From NCBI RefSeq assembly GCF_000190755.2, contig NZ_JH109152.1:2235937-2299936 (forward strand): 64,000 nucleotides of DNA. Direction: 5' to 3'. Each line of letters starts with the position of its first letter. Position 1 is the stretch's first letter. This document shows positions 1 through 14,144 of this stretch, in pieces. A model generated the notes under the pieces. That model was given only the letters and a program-made list of their open reading frames with translations. It was not told the origin of the DNA and searched no databases. The position numbers were made by a program, and so were the translations under genes. This DNA comes from Methylobacter tundripaludum SV96 (GTDB lineage: Bacteria; Pseudomonadota; Gammaproteobacteria; Methylococcales; Methylomonadaceae).

Positions 1-562
1 TTTGATACGCATCAAGCGGCAACCATTCGTACTTAACTTTACGCCAGAGTATTTCGATCAGGTTCAGCTCCGGGCTGTAAGGCGGAAGAAAATGTAAGTA
101 CACACCACGTTGTTGCCAGCCCGCCAGCTTTTCTTTGAATACGCCGCTACGATGAATGGAAGCATTATCCAACACCACACAGCACGGCACTTTAGTTTCT
201 TCGTACTTGCCTGCATACGTTTCGACAAACGCATCAAAGGCATTGACAACCGTATCCGTTGTCACCGATTGTTCGGAGCTGTGGAAAATCAGATCATTGC
301 TGCGACTCAAAAAACCTAACACATTCATGCGCTTGCTACGATAGCAGGGTATTTGTCGGGTCTCGCCAATCCGTTGCCATCCATAGGGTACACAGGGTGT
401 CGTGCTAAATCCGGATTCGTCAAAGTAGTAAAGCTTCAATTCCCCATCATCCTCTTGCTGTTTCAAGGCCTTCAGATATGCCTTATCACGTTGGAAATCT
501 GCTTCATTACGCTTTCCCTTCACTGATTGCCGACAACGTTTCCAGGCATAGGCACTTTTTTT
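1..562 (-). CDS. IS630 transposase, DDE catalytic frame (orfB), 3' truncated by window edge
   Basis: Translating the frame -1 to orfA from the A7 run gives an uninterrupted DDE domain to the window edge. The first Asp is in YYFDESGF, the second in VVLDNASIHRS and the Glu in PPYSPELNLIEILWRKVKYE, the classic IS630 triad with its SPELNxIE signature. There is no convincing independent start codon near the overlap, so expression by -1 slippage on the A run is likely. The protein would be a functional transposase if the missing end is intact. Confidence 0.85.
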
Positions 563-993
563 AAAATTCGTTTAAAGGTGTCAAAGCTGGCTTCCTTGCC
601 CGTCTCCTCCAGCAATCGTGCTGCGGCGGCCTTGGGCTGGTGTGGGTTTTTGTCAATATAGCCCAGAAAAACGGCTTGTTCCTCAACCGTGAAGCGCACA
701 GGCCTACCGCTTCGTGGACAATCGTAAAGCCCTATTAATCCCTCTGTTTCCCATTTGTCTAACCATGAGCTGACAGTCTCATGCTGGGACTCAAACAATT
801 CGCTCAGCCGTGCAATTACATACCTCCTATTATTCAATAAGATAGCATGTGCCCGTTGTCTAACCCGGAATAATGGGTGGTTACGATAGGCTTCGGTTAA
901 CGTTACTTCCTCTTCCGGGGTCAGTTTGGCGATGAATTTCAGGTGGACTCCTAATTTTTGTCTGTTATTGCAATCGTTTCCAGTTTGACACAA
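520..993 (-). CDS. IS630 transposase, N-terminal DNA-binding frame (orfA)
   Basis: 157 codons. This is the helix-turn-helix half of an IS630 transposase: after a short leader come two HTH-like segments, including the stretch RLSELFESQHETVSSWLDKW typical of IS630/Tc1 DNA recognition, and a GLIGLYDCPRSGRPVRF linker (LYD-RSGRP is characteristic). The frame ends shortly after a run of seven A (read on the minus strand; 556-562 on the plus strand). The catalytic half lies in the -1 frame from that run, as expected for programmed -1 frameshifting in this family, although a plain frameshift mutation would look the same. Confidence 0.85.
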   Translation of the reverse strand: MCQTGNDCNNRQKLGVHLKFIAKLTPEEEVTLTEAYRNHPLFRVRQRAHAILLNNRRYVIARLSELFESQHETVSSWLDKWETEGLIGLYDCPRSGRPVRFTVEEQAVFLGYIDKNPHQPKAAAARLLEETGKEASFDTFKRILKKVPMPGNVVGNQ

Positions 994-1030
994 TAAATTT
1001 ACTTCCTAATAACTTTCGCATTACTACTTA

Positions 1031-1659
1031 GCGCCGGTAAAGATCCTGTTGTTCGGGTTCAAGTCGGTCGCTTGCGTGAAAAACTTAAAACGTATTATGC
1101 GACCTTGGGAGCGGGCGCCGACATTGAAATATTAATTCCAACAGGCAGTTACAGGCCGGTTATTCAACGCAAAAGTGTTGTGGAGATCGACTCCAAGCCG
1201 TGCGGCATGTTGGCGCTCCACCCCTTTAAATGTATTTCGCATCATCAAGATGCGGTACATTTCACGCAAGGTTTGAATGAGGAGCTTATGCATCAGTTGT
1301 TTAAAGCATTTGGGAAAATAATTGTAACGCATTCATTTTTCACATCCGGCGATGCCGACCACGAAAGCTGGATTTTAAAAGATATTTCCAGTGCTGGCGT
1401 AAAGCACTTACTCGAAGGCAGCATCCAAATTGACGAAGAACGTCTTCGAGCTTCAATTCGCTTGGTTGATGTTTCAGCGGGGTGTATAGCTTGGACAGAA
1501 CAATTTGATCGACGTGTTTTTTTTGCCATCTCACATCAGGAAGAACTTGCCTCATCTATTTGCAGGGCATTAAAGCGTTTTTTTGTCACCAGTAACGGCG
1601 TCTCGCGGGCATTGTATTTCAAAGTCACGCAGCCGTATCCCATGCCGCATCAAGCTTGA
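1031..1659 (+). pseudogene. Winged-helix/TolB-like regulator, 5' end lost to IS630 insertion
   Basis: This reading frame is a paralogue of the 265-residue protein at 2100-2897, aligning from the DPVVRVQ-GRLREKLK-YYATLG segment to the C-terminus with most residues shared. The roughly 80 N-terminal residues present in the paralogue are missing because the IS630 element ends where homology begins. A late ATG at 1072 is in frame but would start inside the first domain. The remaining C-terminal part is the FlgO/TolB-like domain (FTQGLNEELMHQLFKAF, LEGSIQID, WTEQFDR). The last ~20 residues also differ from the paralogue, so the gene is probably inactive. Confidence 0.75.
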
Positions 1660-2099
1660 TCAAACCGTTCACGCCGCGATGTTACGGTAACACTGATGGA
1701 GCGTTACCGTAACGATACTTACGTTAGACGCCACTATAGCGTTATTGTTTGGCGCGTGATTTTAATTACTAATGTTACCGAGTCCACTATTTGTTGCAAG
1801 TTATTGTAAATAAATAATTAAATCCTGTTTTTTATGCGCGTATTGCGTGTTTTTTATTGAAATGATGATATTTACTGACACACCTCTTAAGTAAGTCGGG
1901 GTAACAAAACCGCTTATTTTTTATTAAATCAATATTCATGAAAAGTAGGCATATTTTTAAAACAGCATGTCAAATTTAATGGCCGGCTCAAATGAATCCA
2001 AAATTTCAGATAATTATTAAATACACTAATTATGAGTATCGTATTTAGAAGTATAAAAGCACGATTAGGTCTGCATTTCATAAACGTGATGGGCCGGTA
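1660..2099. other. Intergenic region without a gene; holds operator-like repeat copy 1
   Basis: AT-rich region with no credible ORF. It contains the hairpin-like pair GTTACGGTAAC (1681-1691) and GTTACCGTAAC (1703-1713), the latter being the start of the 68 bp repeated element. The remaining ~330 bp up to the regulator start at 2100 show no other recognised signal. Confidence 0.6.
1703..1770 (+). promoter_or_regulatory. Shared upstream element, copy 1
   Basis: Begins with GTTACCGTAACGATACTTA, followed about 20 bp later by TATTGTTT and a GTGAT-TTAATTACT block. The same order occurs at 2982-3049 (plus strand) and 6731-6789 (minus strand). Each copy sits 200-330 bp upstream of a gene of this cluster and points towards it. 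The leading 11 bp are themselves nearly palindromic and here have an exact inverted partner 11 bp upstream. An operator or promoter-linked element is inferred; the binding protein is unknown. Confidence 0.5.
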
Positions 2100-2897
2100 A
2101 TGAGCATCATGACGGCAATGAAAAACGGGAAGAATGATGTCAATGCCATTCCTGCGGGTGAGGTTCGAACCGCTCTTGAGACGATTTTGGCAAGCAGTGT
2201 GTTTATTAATGCGCCACGCATGTGTCGTTTGTTGCGCTTTCTTGTCGAGAAGGCAATCTCCGGGGCTGTGCGCGATACCAGTGAATATGCTATCGGCATA
2301 GAGGTTTTTGATAGAGATCCGGCTGCTTATAGTGTCAGTGAAGATCCTGTGGTCCGGGTTCAGATCGGTCGATTGCGTGAAAAGCTTAAAGTTTATTATG
2401 CGACGTTGGGATCTGGTTCATGCATCGAAATATCCGTCCCAATAGGCAGTTACATGCCGGTTATCAGGGCTATGAGTGCGGTGGACATTGATTTCAAGCA
2501 GTGCTGCATGTTGGTAATCCATCCCTTTAAATGTATTTCGTATCATGGAGATAACGCCCATTTCACGCAAGGCTTGAATGAGGAACTTATGCATCAGTTA
2601 TTTAAAGCATTCGGGAAAATAATTGTACCGCATTCTTTTTTCACGTCAGGCGACACCGATACTGAAAGCAGGACTTTAAAAAATGTTTCCAACGCCGGAG
2701 CAAACCATCGACTTGAAGGCAGTGTACAAATCGATGCAGAAAGCATTAGAGCCTCAATCCGCGTGGTAGATGTTTCGGTGGGTTGCATTACTTGGTCAGA
2801 ACAATTTGATCGAGATGCTTTTTTTGCCATTACGCTTCAGGAAGAGCTTGCCTCATCTATTTGCGGCTCATTAAAGAGCTTCTTCGGGCACGAATAA
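2100..2897 (+). CDS. Winged-helix-like/TolB-like (FlgO-type) putative regulatory protein
   Basis: 265 residues, two domains. Residues ~15-125 match the N-terminal domain often found ahead of adenylate-cyclase or TPR proteins (RLLRFLVE, then EYAIGIEVFDRDP-Y, then SEDPVVRVQIGRLREKL-YY). Residues ~135-260 resemble the TolB N-terminal/FlgO-like domain (FTQGLNEELMHQLFKAFGK, LEGSVQID, ITWSEQFDRD, LQEELASSI). It lacks a signal peptide and membrane span and is probably cytoplasmic. Family members usually carry an extra output domain that is absent here. It precedes the unknown genes at 3249-6493 and has a shared upstream element, so it may control them; this is inference. Starts at 2109 and 2118 are possible alternatives. 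Confidence 0.7.
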   Translation: MSIMTAMKNGKNDVNAIPAGEVRTALETILASSVFINAPRMCRLLRFLVEKAISGAVRDTSEYAIGIEVFDRDPAAYSVSEDPVVRVQIGRLREKLKVYYATLGSGSCIEISVPIGSYMPVIRAMSAVDIDFKQCCMLVIHPFKCISYHGDNAHFTQGLNEELMHQLFKAFGKIIVPHSFFTSGDTDTESRTLKNVSNAGANHRLEGSVQIDAESIRASIRVVDVSVGCITWSEQFDRDAFFAITLQEELASSICGSLKSFFGHE

Positions 2898-3248
2898 CGG
2901 CATATTCGTTCAAACTAAGCCGCCTTGTGCGGCGGCGTCTCGTAACATAAAGATAAATTTATAAAGCCGCTTATATTAAATGTTACTGTAACGATACTTA
3001 TGTTAGAGGCACTAAGGCTTTATTGTTTAGCCGTGTGATCTTAATTACTGAATACCGGTAACGATGCCACACAGTAAGTTGACCTGGATAGCTTGAAAAT
3101 AAACGCATACCGATCCTGCTTAGCTTGCAAATTTATTTACATTTACTTTGCCGTTATATTGGGCTGACCTTGAGCACTTGCCAGCCACCTGTGAATATTA
3201 GCGACATTAATGAAGTAAAAAACTCAACTTTAATTTTGGAGATAACAA
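2898..3248. other. Intergenic region with operator-like repeat copy 2
   Basis: No credible coding frame. It contains the repeated element at 2982-3049 and then ~200 bp of AT-rich leader up to the ribosome-binding sequence (GGAG) of the gene at 3249. An open frame runs into that gene from 3125, but the shared family N-terminus and the RBS place the start at 3249. Confidence 0.55.
2982..3049 (+). promoter_or_regulatory. Shared upstream element, copy 2
   Basis: Begins GTTACTGTAACGATACTTA (one difference from copy 1) and continues with TTATTGTTTAGCCGTGTGAT and TTAATTACT, the same blocks with near-identical spacing as copy 1. It lies 200 bp upstream of the unknown-family gene at 3249. The conservation exceeds that of the surrounding intergenic sequence. 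Confidence 0.5.
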
Positions 3249-3916
3249 TGGCAACACCATACGGCGTCACAATCACTATGAGTGCAAGTACCGTTACAAA
3301 TCTTATAAACGGCAATTTCAATCTATATGGCTTCAAGGCTGTACAAACTACGCAATCGGGGGGCGCGCCGCTCGTTTGGTTTAAAACGCTAAATTATTCA
3401 ACCACCACTGCCGTTTCCTGGCAGGAACAGTACCAAGCCTACACGTCTAACAGCAGTATCATTGCCAATGGCCAAATCAACGCAAGCAACTCTAACAATA
3501 TTAACCTTGGCCAAACCATGGATGTTGCTACGGGCGGGATAGGTACCGTGGTTAATGACGGCACTGATTTGGCCATTTCAATTTTAAACCAAACAACAAC
3601 TCAATACACATGCGGTATTTCACAAACAGCGACCGACGGCTCGATGAATCCGCTCTGTGCATTTCCGCTGTATGGCGGCAACATGGATGTTATAGCGCCC
3701 ATCGAGAAAATTTTACTTATGTTCTCCTCTAACCAGATCAACACCGGAACGGTAATCCAAAAAGCTTACAGCCCCGGTATTTTTATCGATCTGACGGCTA
3801 ATAATAACGTAAATGTGGCATACGACCTTAACACAGGTTGGTCGTGGGGCGGATATTCATGGGCTCAGTCAGTTACGGCTAACGCATCAATGTCTCCATT
3901 ACTCATCCAATCATAG
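3249..3916 (+). CDS. Uncharacterised beta-rich protein, family A
   Basis: 222 residues. The start at 3249 is chosen because GGAG lies about 7 bp upstream and the N-terminus (MATPYGVTITMSAS) then matches its paralogue at 4479. No signal peptide, membrane span or known motif is seen. It is rich in Asn, Thr, Ser and Gly. Conserved blocks with the paralogue are LYGFKAVQ, G-PLVWF, YSTTTAVS, YQAYTS, a C-terminal PIEKILLMFSS, and GWSWGGYSWAQ near the end. Two Cys (TCGI and LCAFPL) are conserved between the two. Function unknown; the profile suits a small soluble beta protein such as a lectin-like or pore-type fold, but nothing proves this. Confidence 0.7.
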
Positions 3917-4478
3917 TAGACCGGTTACGCAAAAAATCTCTTTAATATTTCGTATAAACATTGAAGAGAATCATGCTTGTCGGTCAGCTATGTTGAAGTA
4001 AGAAATTGAGCCTGGTTACAAATCCAGCTCGATTGATTTTGCTCCTCTACCCCCTCATAGCGTACGTCGCCATGAGGGGGTTTCCTTATCCGGTTTTATC
4101 GCGCAAAATACATGTCCATAACCTTTTCTGCGTAAGCTGTAATCGGCTGGCGCGTTATTTGATTTATTTTTAATGCGTTACATCAAACGGTTGTACAACC
4201 TGACTTGGCGAATATGTGCGGATACGGCGGCGAGTGCTGTGGCGGCAGGAGGGAGCCGCTGTTTTTGTAAAAGCTTGTGTTGGACAACCCCGCTAAAAAC
4301 CACGCAGCCGTTAATGCTTACGACGCCCCAGCCGTCCGGCTGTCACAAAACTGACGACCCATTAACCCGACGCGATTTCGTAAAGCTTTGCATTTTAGCG
4401 ACGCAAAAAACGTTACGTGCTAACTCTCAGCCTTATCTCTTCTGGGGACTGCTCGATTCCAGTCCGGAAGTACGTGCC
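3917..4478. other. Intergenic region between the two family A genes
   Basis: Holds the terminator at 4049-4081. From 4173 an open frame runs continuously into the next gene, but this ~100-codon stretch has no counterpart in the paralogue and no RBS, so it is treated as leader. No copy of the repeated upstream element is present here. Confidence 0.5.
4049..4081 (+). terminator. Probable Rho-independent terminator after the 3249 gene
   Basis: A 10 bp perfect stem (ACCCCCTCAT at 4049-4058 and ATGAGGGGGT at 4072-4081) with a 13 nt loop is followed by a short T-rich run. It lies about 130 bp downstream of the stop codon at 3916. Confidence 0.7.
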
Positions 4479-5192
4479 ATGTCGAGCTCGGCATATAATG
4501 CGACGATTAATATAAATATGAATGCGGACACCATTCAAAAGCTACTCGCCGGCCAATACATTTTATACGGGTATAAAGCAGTACAAAGTACGGACAAAGC
4601 GGGTAGGCCGTTGGTATGGTTTGGCACGCAAAGCTATTCAACGACAACTGTCGTCAGTTGTTCTGATACGTATCAAGTTTACACCTCTAGCAGTCCTATC
4701 GTGTCGGGAGAGCAAATAACCGTCGGCTTTTCAACGGATATTTTGTGCGGACAAACATTGCAAGTTATTGAGGGAGGGGTTGGGTCGGTTGTCAACACGG
4801 GACATCCTGGCGATGTCTCTATTTCCAACCAAACGACAACAGAATTTACCTGCGGCATAATGCAGGAACAAACTATCAATGGAAATCCTTCGGCTTTTGT
4901 ACCCTATTGCGCCTTTCCATTGAATGGATTAAATCTTCAGGAAATCAGGCCCCTTAATAAAATTCTTCTGATGTTCTCTACGGCGAAGACAAATAACGGT
5001 ACGGTAGTCGTAGATAGCGCAGATAGTACCGCTCTTGCCGGAGCCAATGGGCCGGGGATAATCATAGATTTTAGCGCGATGTCCTCGTGTACGGTCACCT
5101 ACGATGTGAATCTGGGCTGGGACTGGGGCAACTATGCCTGGGCGCAACAGATTCCGGCAAATGAGAACCTTACCCCGTGGCTAATCGAATAA
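4479..5192 (+). CDS. Uncharacterised beta-rich protein, family A paralogue
   Basis: 237 residues from ATG 4479, which has GGAAG 8 bp upstream and aligns with the paralogue at 3249 from the first residues (MSSSAYNATININMNADTIQ). Shared blocks: LYGYKAVQ, GRPLVWFGT, YSTTTVVS, YQVYTSSS, NQTTTEFTCGI, YCAFPLNG, LNKILLMFS, PGIIIDFS, and GWDWGNYAWAQ. It has extra Cys residues compared with the paralogue and no signal peptide. Probably a tandem duplicate that has diverged. Function unknown. Confidence 0.65.
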   Translation: MSSSAYNATININMNADTIQKLLAGQYILYGYKAVQSTDKAGRPLVWFGTQSYSTTTVVSCSDTYQVYTSSSPIVSGEQITVGFSTDILCGQTLQVIEGGVGSVVNTGHPGDVSISNQTTTEFTCGIMQEQTINGNPSAFVPYCAFPLNGLNLQEIRPLNKILLMFSTAKTNNGTVVVDSADSTALAGANGPGIIIDFSAMSSCTVTYDVNLGWDWGNYAWAQQIPANENLTPWLIE

Positions 5193-5387
5193 CATCCATA
5201 TCTGCTTAAATTAACGCTTAGATTCAACTCATAAGAGCAAGCGGCACTGATCGGAAAGAAAAAGGTTAGCTGGGACAACGCAAAACCTAACGTCTTTGTG
5301 ATTATGGTTGTGGGTTTTAGCTCCCGCCTCTACCCACTATCAAATCCGTTGATGAACCCAAAATACAGCTACAGGAAGCGAAGATTA

Positions 5388-6110
5388 TTACGCGGGTATT
5401 AGTACGCCGGGTGCTAAAGAATTTGCTTTCCATGGAAACGCATAAAAGCCCGCACCGGCAATGAGTTGAGCCGCAAGCGTCGCAGAACATGCGCTTAGGA
5501 AAGTTTCTATTGCGGCAGCATTATTCGGAATATTTATGATGTTCTGTATGGCTGTCAGACACGCAGGGTCGGCTGAATTATTCGCATCCAAATAAGTGAA
5601 TACCTGTACGTCAACTGCATTACCGGGATAGTTGCCTCGTTGTGCATCTACAGGCGCTCTACAGATATTAACCGGATTCCAGGTCATGATTGAGAAAAAG
5701 CCTCCGACTCTCGTTTCCGCATTAACCGCATTATTGAGTATAACTGGCGTCCCCCAATCAAAAAAGGCGGCTTCCGGTGCGGCAATAGGAAGAGCATTTA
5801 CATAATTCAGCACCTGTTGAAGCCAAGGCCGAGCAGGGATTTGGTTGTTAATAAAATTAACGACGTCTCCAGCATTGTTACATGCTTCTGACATTGCAAT
5901 CATTAAAGGATCCAACACGATATTGAGCATGTTTTGAGGAACGATGTGACCTTGATGGTCGTATACCTGAATCCCTGTCACTCGTCTGTAATTAAAATTA
6001 CCCGGACGACCATAGTTAAACCCAAATGAATCGAAATTGTTTCCTGGATCCACGTTCCTATTACGATAAAGCGGATTCCACCCGTGTATGTTGTCAGTAT
6101 TGCCAGCCAT
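5388..6110 (-). CDS. Uncharacterised protein
   Basis: 240 residues, start ATG 6110 preceded by GGAGG with 8 bp spacing. No signal peptide, membrane span or recognised domain. The N-terminal third is Asn- and aromatic-rich (GNNFDSFGFNYGRPGNFNYRR); the middle and C-terminus look helical with many Ala, Asn and Ile. It is convergent with the family A genes and lies 119 bp downstream of the small gene at 6230-6493, so both are probably transcribed together from the repeated element near 6.75 kb. Function unknown. Confidence 0.6.
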   Translation of the reverse strand: MAGNTDNIHGWNPLYRNRNVDPGNNFDSFGFNYGRPGNFNYRRVTGIQVYDHQGHIVPQNMLNIVLDPLMIAMSEACNNAGDVVNFINNQIPARPWLQQVLNYVNALPIAAPEAAFFDWGTPVILNNAVNAETRVGGFFSIMTWNPVNICRAPVDAQRGNYPGNAVDVQVFTYLDANNSADPACLTAIQNIINIPNNAAAIETFLSACSATLAAQLIAGAGFYAFPWKANSLAPGVLIPA

Positions 6111-6229
6111 AATTTAAGCCTCCAAAAAGTTTTAATATTTAATGAAATAAGCACCAGATGCGGGAAACCACGGGCCCGGTGGAGTGGGAAAGATGGCGGA
6201 TACAATTCCGCCATTTTGCTAATTTGAGC

Positions 6230-6493
6230 TTATGCTGTTTGTACGTTTATGGTATCGGCATTGACTGTGATATTGAGTGTCGTAGGATAACCCCTTGCGT
6301 CCACCGTTATTGCTATTTGGGCGGGTTGGGTTGTCTTGTAGACAGTTAATAATGAGTTCCCATCAGCTACATTTTGCGCCGTACCAAAGTTAGCCGTGCC
6401 GTTCAGCCCCCACCTGACATTGCCGATTGTCACCGCAGTGGTATTTTGAGCATCGGTTCCGCCAACTATGTTTACTATTACACTTGTTACCAT
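6230..6493 (-). CDS. Small uncharacterised protein
   Basis: 87 residues starting MVTSVIVNIVGG. An upstream in-frame ATG at 6526 exists, but GAGG is placed 7 bp before the ATG at 6493, which is preferred. The sequence is rich in Thr, Val and Asn and looks like an all-beta strand pattern ending ITVDARGYPTTLNITVNADT. No export signal. First gene of a probable two-gene unit with 5388-6110. Function unknown. Confidence 0.6.
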   Translation of the reverse strand: MVTSVIVNIVGGTDAQNTTAVTIGNVRWGLNGTANFGTAQNVADGNSLLTVYKTTQPAQIAITVDARGYPTTLNITVNADTINVQTA

Positions 6494-6730
6494 TTCTGTT
6501 CCTCGCTGAGTTTTATGAGCGGCCATTTAAAAGCCACATTCTGAAATACGGAACACCCATGTCAATTTCAATAAAAACAAGAATCCGGTAAACCGATAAG
6601 GTGCAATGGGTCAGACTCGATTGACCTGCCGTAGATTCGGGTTCATTCCTCACATGATGGTGATTCGTAAGACTTTGAGTTGCGACGAGTCAACCTGAAA
6701 TGATCTTTGTTGGATCGTTCGCGCTGCCGT

Positions 6731-6789
6731 CAATCTCGCGTTAAACAATAATGCCTTACCGACTTTAAAGTAAGTATCGTTACGGTAAC
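6731..6789 (-). promoter_or_regulatory. Shared upstream element, copy 3
   Basis: On the minus strand it reads GTTACCGTAACGATACTTA followed ~21 bp later by ATTGTTTAACGCGAGATT. It matches copies 1 and 2 in order and spacing but diverges at the far end. It points towards the minus-strand genes starting at 6493, ~240 bp downstream. Confidence 0.5.
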
Positions 6790-6970
6790 AGTCTTTAGGC
6801 GCTATCGGGGGACCCGTGCGACAAGCGAAGCCTGTGCATGTACCGGTCTAACATAAATGGTCATTCTAATTTGATCTGAGCCCCCTTCTGATGGAAATCG
6901 GAATACCTTCGGGTCATACGCCAGTGATCAGACGAATTCATCAAAATATCGGCCTTGCAGCTGATTGCCT

Positions 6971-7085
6971 TAATCGGAGGCAAGTTTATGCCAGGGTTTT
7001 TCGGTATCGGCATTCCCTTGTTTCAGATTGCCTGCCATAACCTGAATTCTTCCTGGAACCCTGATTTTCCGGCCAGTTGCACATC
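6971..7085 (+). pseudogene. marC fragment (relic)
   Basis: Two short stretches closely match the intact marC at 12924-13565: one around TTCGGTATCGGCATTCCC with flanks (marC ~13105-13155) and one around CCATAACCTGAA to the CGGCCAGTTGC region (marC ~13330-13377). The ~180 bp between them in marC is deleted. No reading frame survives. It lies upstream of the 7309 gene exactly as marC lies upstream of the paralogous 13791 gene, showing that a whole block was duplicated. Confidence 0.75.
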
Positions 7086-7151
7086 CTGCCATTGGCTGCG
7101 ATAACGCGTTTTGATTCCCAAAATTTATATTTTCTTTATAAAACTGAGCTT

Positions 7152-7173
7152 GATTTTTACAGCTTTCTTAAGG
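7152..7173 (+). promoter_or_regulatory. KdpE-box-like T-rich site upstream of the 7309 gene
   Basis: GATTTTTACAGCTTTCTTAAGG resembles the site upstream of kdpF (17277-17300) and the one upstream of the paralogous gene (13638-13658). E. coli KdpE binds a similar T-rich double motif. This is the weakest of the three copies, with two C interruptions. Confidence 0.35.
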
Positions 7174-7308
7174 CAATTTTTATTAACATGCAGTTAATTG
7201 CTTGATGACCGGTTTTTACAGGAACGGCTGTTTTTGGAATCAATACAGCGGCGATGGGGTCGGGAATAATTCAAGCGTTTTCCCTGCAAGTTTTTACGAG
7301 GCGCTTTT

Positions 7309-7683
7309 ATGAATAACAAGTTCATTAAATTTTTTATGATCCTGATGTCGAGTCTTATGACGCAGGCTGCATTTTCAAACACCTTTTATACAGTGGATAC
7401 GCTATCGGGATTGACGGCCGATAGGGGGATCGTCGGCACGAATGCGAACATGACCGACCGCTATACGCTGCCTCCCAACAAGGTTTACATCGAACCCTGC
7501 CAACGGGAAGGGCTGCTTCGGCATCCTGGCGTCATTGAGAAACAACAAATATTACATCGGCACGGAGATTTTTGGGTGCGGCTTGAGATACAGACGCGTG
7601 GCGGTTCGGAGTGGTTTGCGCTGTGCGACTTGAAAACCGGTAAAATCATCCGTGAGCAGAAGCTGATCGATGATGTATTCTGA
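7309..7683 (+). CDS. Small secreted protein (paralogue of 13791-14144)
   Basis: 124 residues with an N-terminal signal peptide (Lys-containing start, hydrophobic core FFMILMSSLMTQAAFS, likely cleavage after AFS), hence periplasmic. The mature part has a conserved DRYTLPPNKVYIEPCQREGL, then HPGVIEKQQILHRHGDFWVR, then WFALCDLKTGKII; the two Cys are kept in the paralogue and may form a disulfide. RBS GAGG lies ahead of ATG 7309. The leader and RBS are nearly the same as those of the paralogue. Function unknown; the neighbouring K+ and Mg2+ transport genes suggest a role linked to ion stress. Confidence 0.75.
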   Translation: MNNKFIKFFMILMSSLMTQAAFSNTFYTVDTLSGLTADRGIVGTNANMTDRYTLPPNKVYIEPCQREGLLRHPGVIEKQQILHRHGDFWVRLEIQTRGGSEWFALCDLKTGKIIREQKLIDDVF

Positions 7684-7792
7684 TGGTTTGGCAGTGTTGA
7701 GTCACAGGAATTCCATTCGTGCCTGATGCCTAACGAGTGATTTGATATTACAATTGATGGAATTACAAATTTGCCAAATTCAAAGGGACGAC

Positions 7793-9004
7793 ATGATCTT
7801 CAATCTCTACCCGTCGGTAGTATTAACCAAGGCCACTGCAAGATGGCTGACGATACTGACTTTATGCGGCCTGCAAGGTTGCTTTTCACCGATGGCGCTG
7901 GATCATGCGGTAATCGAGTATGACAAGGCAACCGCGGATATTCTGTCCAAGCAGCTGCTTTTAAATATTGCCCGTTCCCATCAGCATCAACCCATGCATT
8001 TCACCGGCGTTTCCAATATTGCCGCGACTTTTAATTTTCAATTTAATGCCGGGGCGACACCGGCGTTTACCGGTGAAACCGGCTCGTTATTGACGCCGGT
8101 GTTTGGCGGTACGATTTCCGAGAACCCGACCATCAGCATCGTGCCGATTGAAGGCGAGGAGTTTACCCGCCGTTTGCTGACGCCATTTCAAGAAAACAAA
8201 CTGACCATGCTGTTGCGGCAAGGCGCTGATGTGGACTTGATTCTGCGCCTGCTGGCCGGTGAATTACGGATTTACGACAACGGCCAGAGCGGCATTTATC
8301 TGAACAAACCCGGCGATGCCGAAGGCTACCGGTTGTTTCGGCAAGCCGTGCTGCATTTGTCGTCGATCCAGGATAGACACAAGTTGTTTGTCGAACCGTT
8401 GATGTTTGACCGGCATTGGACCTTGCCGGCCGGATCGTTGACGGCGGAACAAATGGCCGATCTGCAAAAAGAATTCAAGATCGAATATCAGGCCGAGCGT
8501 AAGGAAGTCACATTGAGCAAGCGGGTGACCGGGCATATCCTGTTGACCAATTACGATCCGACGACGCTAAGCAACGAGGAGCGCATTCGTTTGAATGCAG
8601 AAGCCGATAAAGGCGCAGTTAATGATGTCAGTGTCGATATCCGGCCCGGTTATCCGGGCGGCGAATGGCCGATACACGGGGTTTTTCGCTTGCGCAGCTT
8701 TCATAATGTGCTGAATTTTATCGGTCAGTCCATTAGTGATGACCCGGAATATACCGTTGCCAAACATCCGCAAACGCCTAACGTTAGTGAGAATCCGGTG
8801 AATACCATGGCATTGCTGGTTAGCGATGATGAGTCGGCGGCTGCCGATACCCGTGTGCAGTTTGGCGATTGGCACTACGCGCTTAAAGCTGAATCCGGCT
8901 ATCAATGGAATCGCGAAGGCTTTCGGCTGTTATGCCAGGTTTTTCAAATGACCATGACCGATCTGGCGCAGCAAGGCGCGCCGATCATTACCATTGCCAA
9001 ATAA
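7793..9004 (+). CDS. Putative lipoprotein of unknown function
   Basis: 403 residues from ATG 7793 (AAGGG 5 bp upstream; an upstream in-frame start at 7742 is less likely). The N-terminus has a hydrophobic stretch and a lipobox LQGC, so it is probably a membrane-anchored lipoprotein. The rest is soluble, with no domain I can name. The gene sits between the secreted-protein gene and corA, a place that in the paralogous block is taken by the K+ channel and HAD fragment; the spacer just upstream is conserved in both blocks. Stop is 12 bp before corA, suggesting co-transcription. Confidence 0.65.
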   Translation: MIFNLYPSVVLTKATARWLTILTLCGLQGCFSPMALDHAVIEYDKATADILSKQLLLNIARSHQHQPMHFTGVSNIAATFNFQFNAGATPAFTGETGSLLTPVFGGTISENPTISIVPIEGEEFTRRLLTPFQENKLTMLLRQGADVDLILRLLAGELRIYDNGQSGIYLNKPGDAEGYRLFRQAVLHLSSIQDRHKLFVEPLMFDRHWTLPAGSLTAEQMADLQKEFKIEYQAERKEVTLSKRVTGHILLTNYDPTTLSNEERIRLNAEADKGAVNDVSVDIRPGYPGGEWPIHGVFRLRSFHNVLNFIGQSISDDPEYTVAKHPQTPNVSENPVNTMALLVSDDESAAADTRVQFGDWHYALKAESGYQWNREGFRLLCQVFQMTMTDLAQQGAPIITIAK

Positions 9005-13658: not shown

Positions 13659-13790
13659 CGTTTTTTATATCATGCAGTTAATTGCTTGATGATCAGTTTG
13701 GCATGATTGGCTGTTTTTGAAATCAATAAAGCACCGATTGGGCCAGGATTAATTCAAGCGATTTCCTTACAGTTTTTACGAGGCGCTTCC

Positions 13791-14144
13791 ATGAATAGCA
13801 AGTTTATTAAAAAAGTTTTGATTTTGATGGTGAGTCTTGTGGCTCAGACTGCATTTTCAAACCTAGCTCATTCAGCGGATACTTTATCGAGATTGGCGAC
13901 CTATAGGGAGGTCGTCGGCGCGGATGCGAATATTACCGACCGCTATGCATTGCCTCCCAGTAAAGTCAACATCGAGCCCTGCCAACGAGAGGCGCTGCGT
14001 CTGCATCCGGGAATAATTGAGAAACAACGAATGCTGCATCGGCGCGGGGATTTCGTGGTGCGATTTCAGATACAGGCGCATGACGGTTTGGACTGGTTTA
14101 TGCTGTGTGACTTGGCAACCGGGAAAATCATTGAGGAATTCTGA
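13791..14144 (+). CDS. Small secreted protein (paralogue of 7309-7683)
   Basis: 117 residues from ATG 13791 (GAGG RBS; an in-frame start at 13707 lies in the conserved leader and is not used). Signal peptide with hydrophobic core VLILMVSLVAQTAFS. The mature part shares DRYALPPSKVNIEPCQREAL, HPGIIEKQRMLHRRGDF and WFMLCDLATGKII with the copy at 7309, including both Cys. It sits between marC and a K+ channel gene and probably has the same KdpE-box-like promoter. Function unknown. Confidence 0.75.
   Translation: MNSKFIKKVLILMVSLVAQTAFSNLAHSADTLSRLATYREVVGADANITDRYALPPSKVNIEPCQREALRLHPGIIEKQRMLHRRGDFVVRFQIQAHDGLDWFMLCDLATGKIIEEF

Follow-up and report, generated by a model that had tools for sequence, protein, structure and literature searches.

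A conserved palindromic element as the candidate control region of an activator-dependent promoter in Methylobacter tundripaludum SV96

Three copies of the element in one gene cluster

The window analysed here, a stretch of 64,000 nucleotides of the Methylobacter tundripaludum SV96 genome (contig NZ_JH109152.1, positions 2,235,937 to 2,299,936), begins with a gene cluster in which a regulator-like gene is tandemly duplicated, the two gene copies being about 79% identical at a spacing of 1301 bp. The second of them (2100 to 2897, forward strand) encodes the candidate regulator, a protein with an N-terminal winged helix of the OmpR/PhoB type, recognised by a weak match, and a C-terminal TolB_N/PelC-like domain. 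The first is present as a 3' remnant (1029 to 1659, forward strand) whose 5' end is on the far side of an IS630-type insertion; the transposase gene, at window positions 1-993, splits this copy, and the part encoding its N terminus is found before the insertion, at G000:C1:2235635-2235859. The genes that follow, referred to here as cargo, encode a 222-aa protein of unknown family (3248 to 3916, forward strand), its paralogue of about 50% identity, which lacks an element of its own (4479 to 5192, forward strand), and, on the reverse strand, an 87-aa and a 240-aa unknown protein (6230 to 6493 and 5388 to 6110, the first and the second cargo gene behind the third element copy, respectively). Comparison of the window's own cargo with Pfam and NCBIfam gave nothing above cut-off, and the structure model of the 3248 gene product (pLDDT 65) had its best PDB match at E 0.41. 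The open reading frame at window 4173-5192 carries a Tat-signal-like TRRDFVK motif before its domain, a feature kept in G012, and those at 7309-7683 and 13707-14144, 6 kb apart, look like paralogues that share MNxKFIK... starts.

Three copies of an element of about 50-68 bp accompany these genes: copy 1 at 1703-1770 and copy 2 at 2982-3049, both on the forward strand, and copy 3 at 6731-6789 on the reverse strand. The 19-base core of the element, GTTACNGTAACGATACTTA, has three perfect matches in a scan of the entire 4.85 Mb genome, all of them within the cluster and every one oriented toward a cluster gene. When up to three mismatches are allowed, the window still yields exactly three matches, each of them perfect; shuffles gave 0.01 on average, and none of 100 reached three. 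The next-best places in the genome are three with two or three mismatches, the level of a reversed control pattern. These scans bear out the description given in an earlier note on this DNA, which had reported three copies, each upstream of a cluster gene and oriented with it at 200-330 bp, and the measured distances between the element and the next gene are indeed about 200-330 bp. The composition that it had assigned to the element was correct in part: the core is common to all three copies, as is TATTGTTT, and the GTGAT block is missing from copy 3. The end block TTAATTACT, said to be shared by copies 1 and 2, is found in those two copies, the same two that carry GTGAT, and is absent from copy 3, which has GCGAGATTGACGG. 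The genome-wide scan that had been proposed did not reveal a dispersed repeat with many copies, and the restriction of the three copies to the cluster rules out a dispersed repeat, REP or MITE. A structured RNA element was also considered and rejected, window 1-9000 giving only a chance-level snoRNA match in Rfam.

It is important to consider how far the copies are independent of each other. Copies 1 and 2 follow the two copies of the regulator gene and are not fully independent, because both come after its tandem duplication. Copy 3 can be regarded as independent of them, because it shares the element without the flanks: its 50-bp element is 80-82% identical to those of copies 1 and 2, and its flanks match theirs only at shuffle level. 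The same distinction is seen between genomes, since the orthologous copy 3 of G012 is 94% identical over the element and at shuffle level over the 150 bp behind it.

Element anatomy and the predicted promoter

In an alignment of 20 elements, positions 1-11 (GTTACNGTAAC) and 12-19 (G[AT]TACTTA) are nearly invariant, and the flanks drop to background. The half-sites stand in an 11-bp register before the predicted -10, with GTTAC at position 1, G[AT]TAC at position 12 and TAnnnT at 40/41. According to the core scans of the window and the genome, the main palindrome of copy 1, GTTACCGTAAC, and its adjoining half-site GATACTTA occupy 1703 to 1721 on the forward strand; the palindrome and half-site of copy 2 lie at 2982 to 3000 on the same strand, and those of copy 3 at 6771 to 6789 on the reverse strand. 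Thirteen of the 20 elements possess a further palindrome upstream, usually at 22 bp (G012_1, G003_C445, G010, G119, G174, G116, G269, G270 and G271) and sometimes at 20 bp (G100 and G120). Copy 1 exemplifies the longer spacing, with GTTACGGTAAC at 1681 to 1691 (forward strand), 22 bp from the main palindrome, a feature that the earlier note had overlooked.

Beyond the half-sites, all 12 non-redundant elements have TAnnnT with its first base at position 40 or 41; at offsets deviating by more than one base, the motif is present in at most four of the 12. Some of these elements share descent within a genus, so that the 12 are not fully independent. The first T, the A and the last T correspond to the best-conserved positions of the sigma-70 -10. 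At this fixed distance the three copies of the window present the same predicted -10 hexamer, TATTGT, located at 1743 to 1748 (copy 1) and 3021 to 3026 (copy 2) on the forward strand and at 6745 to 6750 on the reverse strand (copy 3, reading ACAATA on the forward strand). A -35 hexamer at 17 bp, placed by position only, would coincide with the end of the downstream half-site and would match the consensus poorly, which is what would usually be expected of an activator-dependent promoter. The leaders calculated from the coordinates would measure about 24-345 nt. TTGTTT was also considered as the -35 and discarded: when the alignment was read by eye, no -10 was seen to follow it at an unvarying spacing, in contrast to TAnnnT with its fixed start at 40/41. 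The predicted element promoters were absent from the output of a generic sigma-70 scan, which gave no excess over shuffles.

The candidate regulator and its association with the element

The 11 orthologues of the regulator have in common an almost invariant segment around DPIVRVQVGRLREKLK. The putative recognition-helix segment (residues 80-98) can be aligned with those of PhoB, OmpR and CadC (hhalign E 0.0023 over 19 columns, with a probability of 12%), and the structure model (mean pLDDT 71) contains a long helix at 83-102 followed by two strands. The whole-protein match to Trans_reg_C (PF00486) is below the curated cut-off (E 0.29; 11.7 bits vs 26.2), and weak matches of this kind, with E values of 0.13-0.29 and likewise below cut-off, occur in four of the 11 members. 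The C-terminal half resembles in fold PelC, FlgT, TolB and LpoB, which are among the top PDB matches (best E 1.9e-6); the top Foldseek matches span mainly this domain, and the matches to TolB_N and FlgO are weak by sequence. Inspection by eye revealed no evident membrane segment. It is plausible that the protein functions in the manner of OmpR-type winged-helix regulators, a membership that sequence alone does not establish.

The distribution of the element follows that of the regulator. In a set of 81 genomes formed by the own genome and 80 relatives, the core occurs at one mismatch or less in only four (the own genome, G003, G010 and G012), and these same four are the ones that have an orthologue of the 2100-2897 gene among the 23 genomes of the genus Methylobacter (site in 4/4 genomes with the gene vs 0/19 without it; Fisher p = 1e-4). 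Since the site lies next to the gene, common inheritance accounts for part of this co-occurrence. A profile search extended the set of regulator orthologues to two further genera of the family, and the arrangement GTTACNGTAAC-N9/N11-GTTACNGTAACG[AT]TACT is found downstream of the regulator gene in G119, G174, G100, G116 and G120, the usual location of the element being directly 3' of the regulator gene and before the cargo. An independent scan for the tandem palindrome across the DNA of about 85,000 species (257 Gb) returned 26 stretches, where about one would be expected under uniform base composition. The regulator is present in 11 of the 26, distributed over Methylobacter, Crenothrix, other Methylococcales, a Gallionellaceae, a Nitrosomonas and another proteobacterium, and all 11 show the N9 or N11 spacing together with the third half-site G[AT]TACT. 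Among the 15 stretches without the regulator this half-site appears only in L067, where the contig ends just short of the expected regulator position, and in L070, a GTTAC-rich repeat. On a wider scale, the full pattern is confined to the own genome in a phylum-wide sample of 398 genomes, and the regulator is rare, being limited to the own genome and two remote matches among 369 genomes of the wider class. No target site was found away from the regulator locus in these searches.

The earlier note had also named the winged-helix/TolB-like protein as the possible regulator and the element as its dedicated operator. The first proposal is strengthened, on sequence grounds, by the presence of site and protein in the same four of 23 genomes and by their tracking across genera; the second holds in that the element is a candidate operator, and the sites together with the fixed -10 would fit an activator-type promoter better than an operator alone. 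The element is most likely the binding site of the linked regulator and, at the same time, a promoter. Against this stands G115 (L058), whose regulator orthologue has a rearranged downstream side and lacks the site, the only such case among the orthologues of other genera.

Proposed control and the genes behind the element

The element is quite probably the control region of an activator-dependent promoter recognised by the linked one-component regulator. The regulator would bind the palindrome and, in 11-bp register with it, the adjoining G[AT]TAC half-site, often with an additional contribution of the second palindrome two helical turns upstream, and the downstream half-site would run into a degenerate -35, with the -10 (TATTGT) at a fixed distance beyond. 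Because the half-site meets the -35 and the -10 is held at this distance, the bound regulator would bring RNA polymerase to the cargo gene. Copy 1 would in this way serve the second copy of the regulator gene, copy 2 the 3248 gene and copy 3 the 6493-5388 operon. The arrangement recalls the pho box and the PhoP box, whose half-sites stand in an 11-bp register upstream of the -10, and it resembles OmpR/PhoB-type activators and their targets in this register, in the position of the element before a -10 whose -35 is poor and in the alignable, putative recognition-helix segment of the regulator. It differs from them in the palindromic pairs of half-sites, in their sequence, in a TolB_N/PelC-like domain that takes the place of the receiver domain, and in a whole-protein Trans_reg_C match below the curated cut-off. 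The fusion of an N-terminal winged helix to a non-receiver domain is also typical of CadC/ToxR-type one-component regulators, from which the candidate departs by its TolB_N/FlgO/PelC-like C-terminal domain and by having no membrane segment evident by eye.

That the regulator activates rather than represses is what we infer from this layout. A repressor bound to the same sites would block RNA polymerase at the -35 until a signal relieved the block, and several features would accommodate such a mechanism, given that the array extends to the -35 position, that sites adjoining a promoter are compatible with either sign of control and that palindromes are common as repressor operators. The absence of a good -35 hexamer, typical of activator-dependent promoters, argues against it, as does the usual role of OmpR/PhoB-type winged helices as activators when they sit on 11-bp repeats upstream of the -10; repression is considered unlikely. 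It is much less probable that a different, unlinked factor, for instance of the LacI type, binds the palindrome and that the TolB-like gene is a passenger. The GTTAC...GTAAC half-sites do resemble the operators of GntR-type regulators (GntR/IdnR, LacI family), such as the E. coli GntR operator ATGTTACCGGTAACAT. However, the element has a centre of one base instead of two, a tandem array with a third half-site and a linked regulator from another family; within the genus the site is found only in genomes with the TolB-like gene, and in several genera the sites adjoin this gene.

The front of the element is kept while the genes behind it differ from genome to genome. The cargo consists of DUF2589 proteins in G100, of a phosphatidylserine decarboxylase-like protein in G270 and of a DyP-type peroxidase at the G119 locus, and a first cargo gene family beginning with MADIQLNL... 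is common to G010, G116 and G271. In G120, one locus has a tyrosinase, LodA and a multicopper oxidase behind the element, and the other an FMP-type peroxidase with a GoxA-like oxidase and a radical SAM protein; the 60 bp preceding the element are 98% identical between these loci, whose sequences diverge once past it. An Evf-family protein lies behind the element in G003 (PF18270, E 2e-30). In Erwinia carotovora, Evf serves as an infection factor for Drosophila (PMC7315124).

This variation of cargo, and above all the single genome with two near-identical fronts and different cargo, might suggest that the element serves for recombination or insertion in the exchange of cargo and has no regulatory role. 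Nevertheless, the identity of the fronts carries on beyond the palindromes and ends at differing points downstream, such a site would have no need of a -10 at fixed distance, and no recombinase gene was seen travelling with the element, so that this explanation appears highly improbable. The chance that the element is a plain functionless repeat, spread by tandem duplication or by a small mobile element, is negligible: copies 1 and 2 do follow the duplicated regulator gene, but only three copies exist in the genome, copy 3 has the element without the shared flanks, and the core is kept across genera where the flanks are not.

Returning to the promoter recognised by its linked regulator, it can be tentatively proposed, at somewhat less than an even chance, that regulator and promoter form a constant head in methanotrophs and nitrifiers behind which cargo is exchanged between genomes, so that new secreted or redox proteins gain the same control. 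Provided that the head stays the same under changing cargo, it would offer acquired genes a simple route into existing control. Control by a site and its activator is already known; the regulator class with this candidate site, and a head that remains constant as its cargo changes, seem to be a novel form of it. Within the collection searched, the publications found to contain the palindrome deal with other subjects according to their titles and abstracts, none of them concerning a regulator of this kind or showing the palindrome as an operator, and a search of the literature for this type of regulator found nothing relevant. For the uncharacterised class of winged-helix/TolB-like regulators, a candidate binding site and a promoter layout are now available in concrete, directly testable form. 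In addition, a short DNA tag becomes available to locate otherwise unannotated cargo across methane and ammonia oxidisers, including LodA/GoxA-like oxidases, peroxidases, tyrosinase, the Evf-family protein and many unknown families.

Two further observations concern individual loci. A Methylobacter genome has a gene of the Evf family (PF18270) behind a copy of the element, at L032:962-1771 (reverse strand), and L061 and L107, which belong to one uncultured Methylococcaceae genome, present two element fronts with differing oxidase/peroxidase cargo that includes tyrosinase and LodA/GoxA-like proteins.
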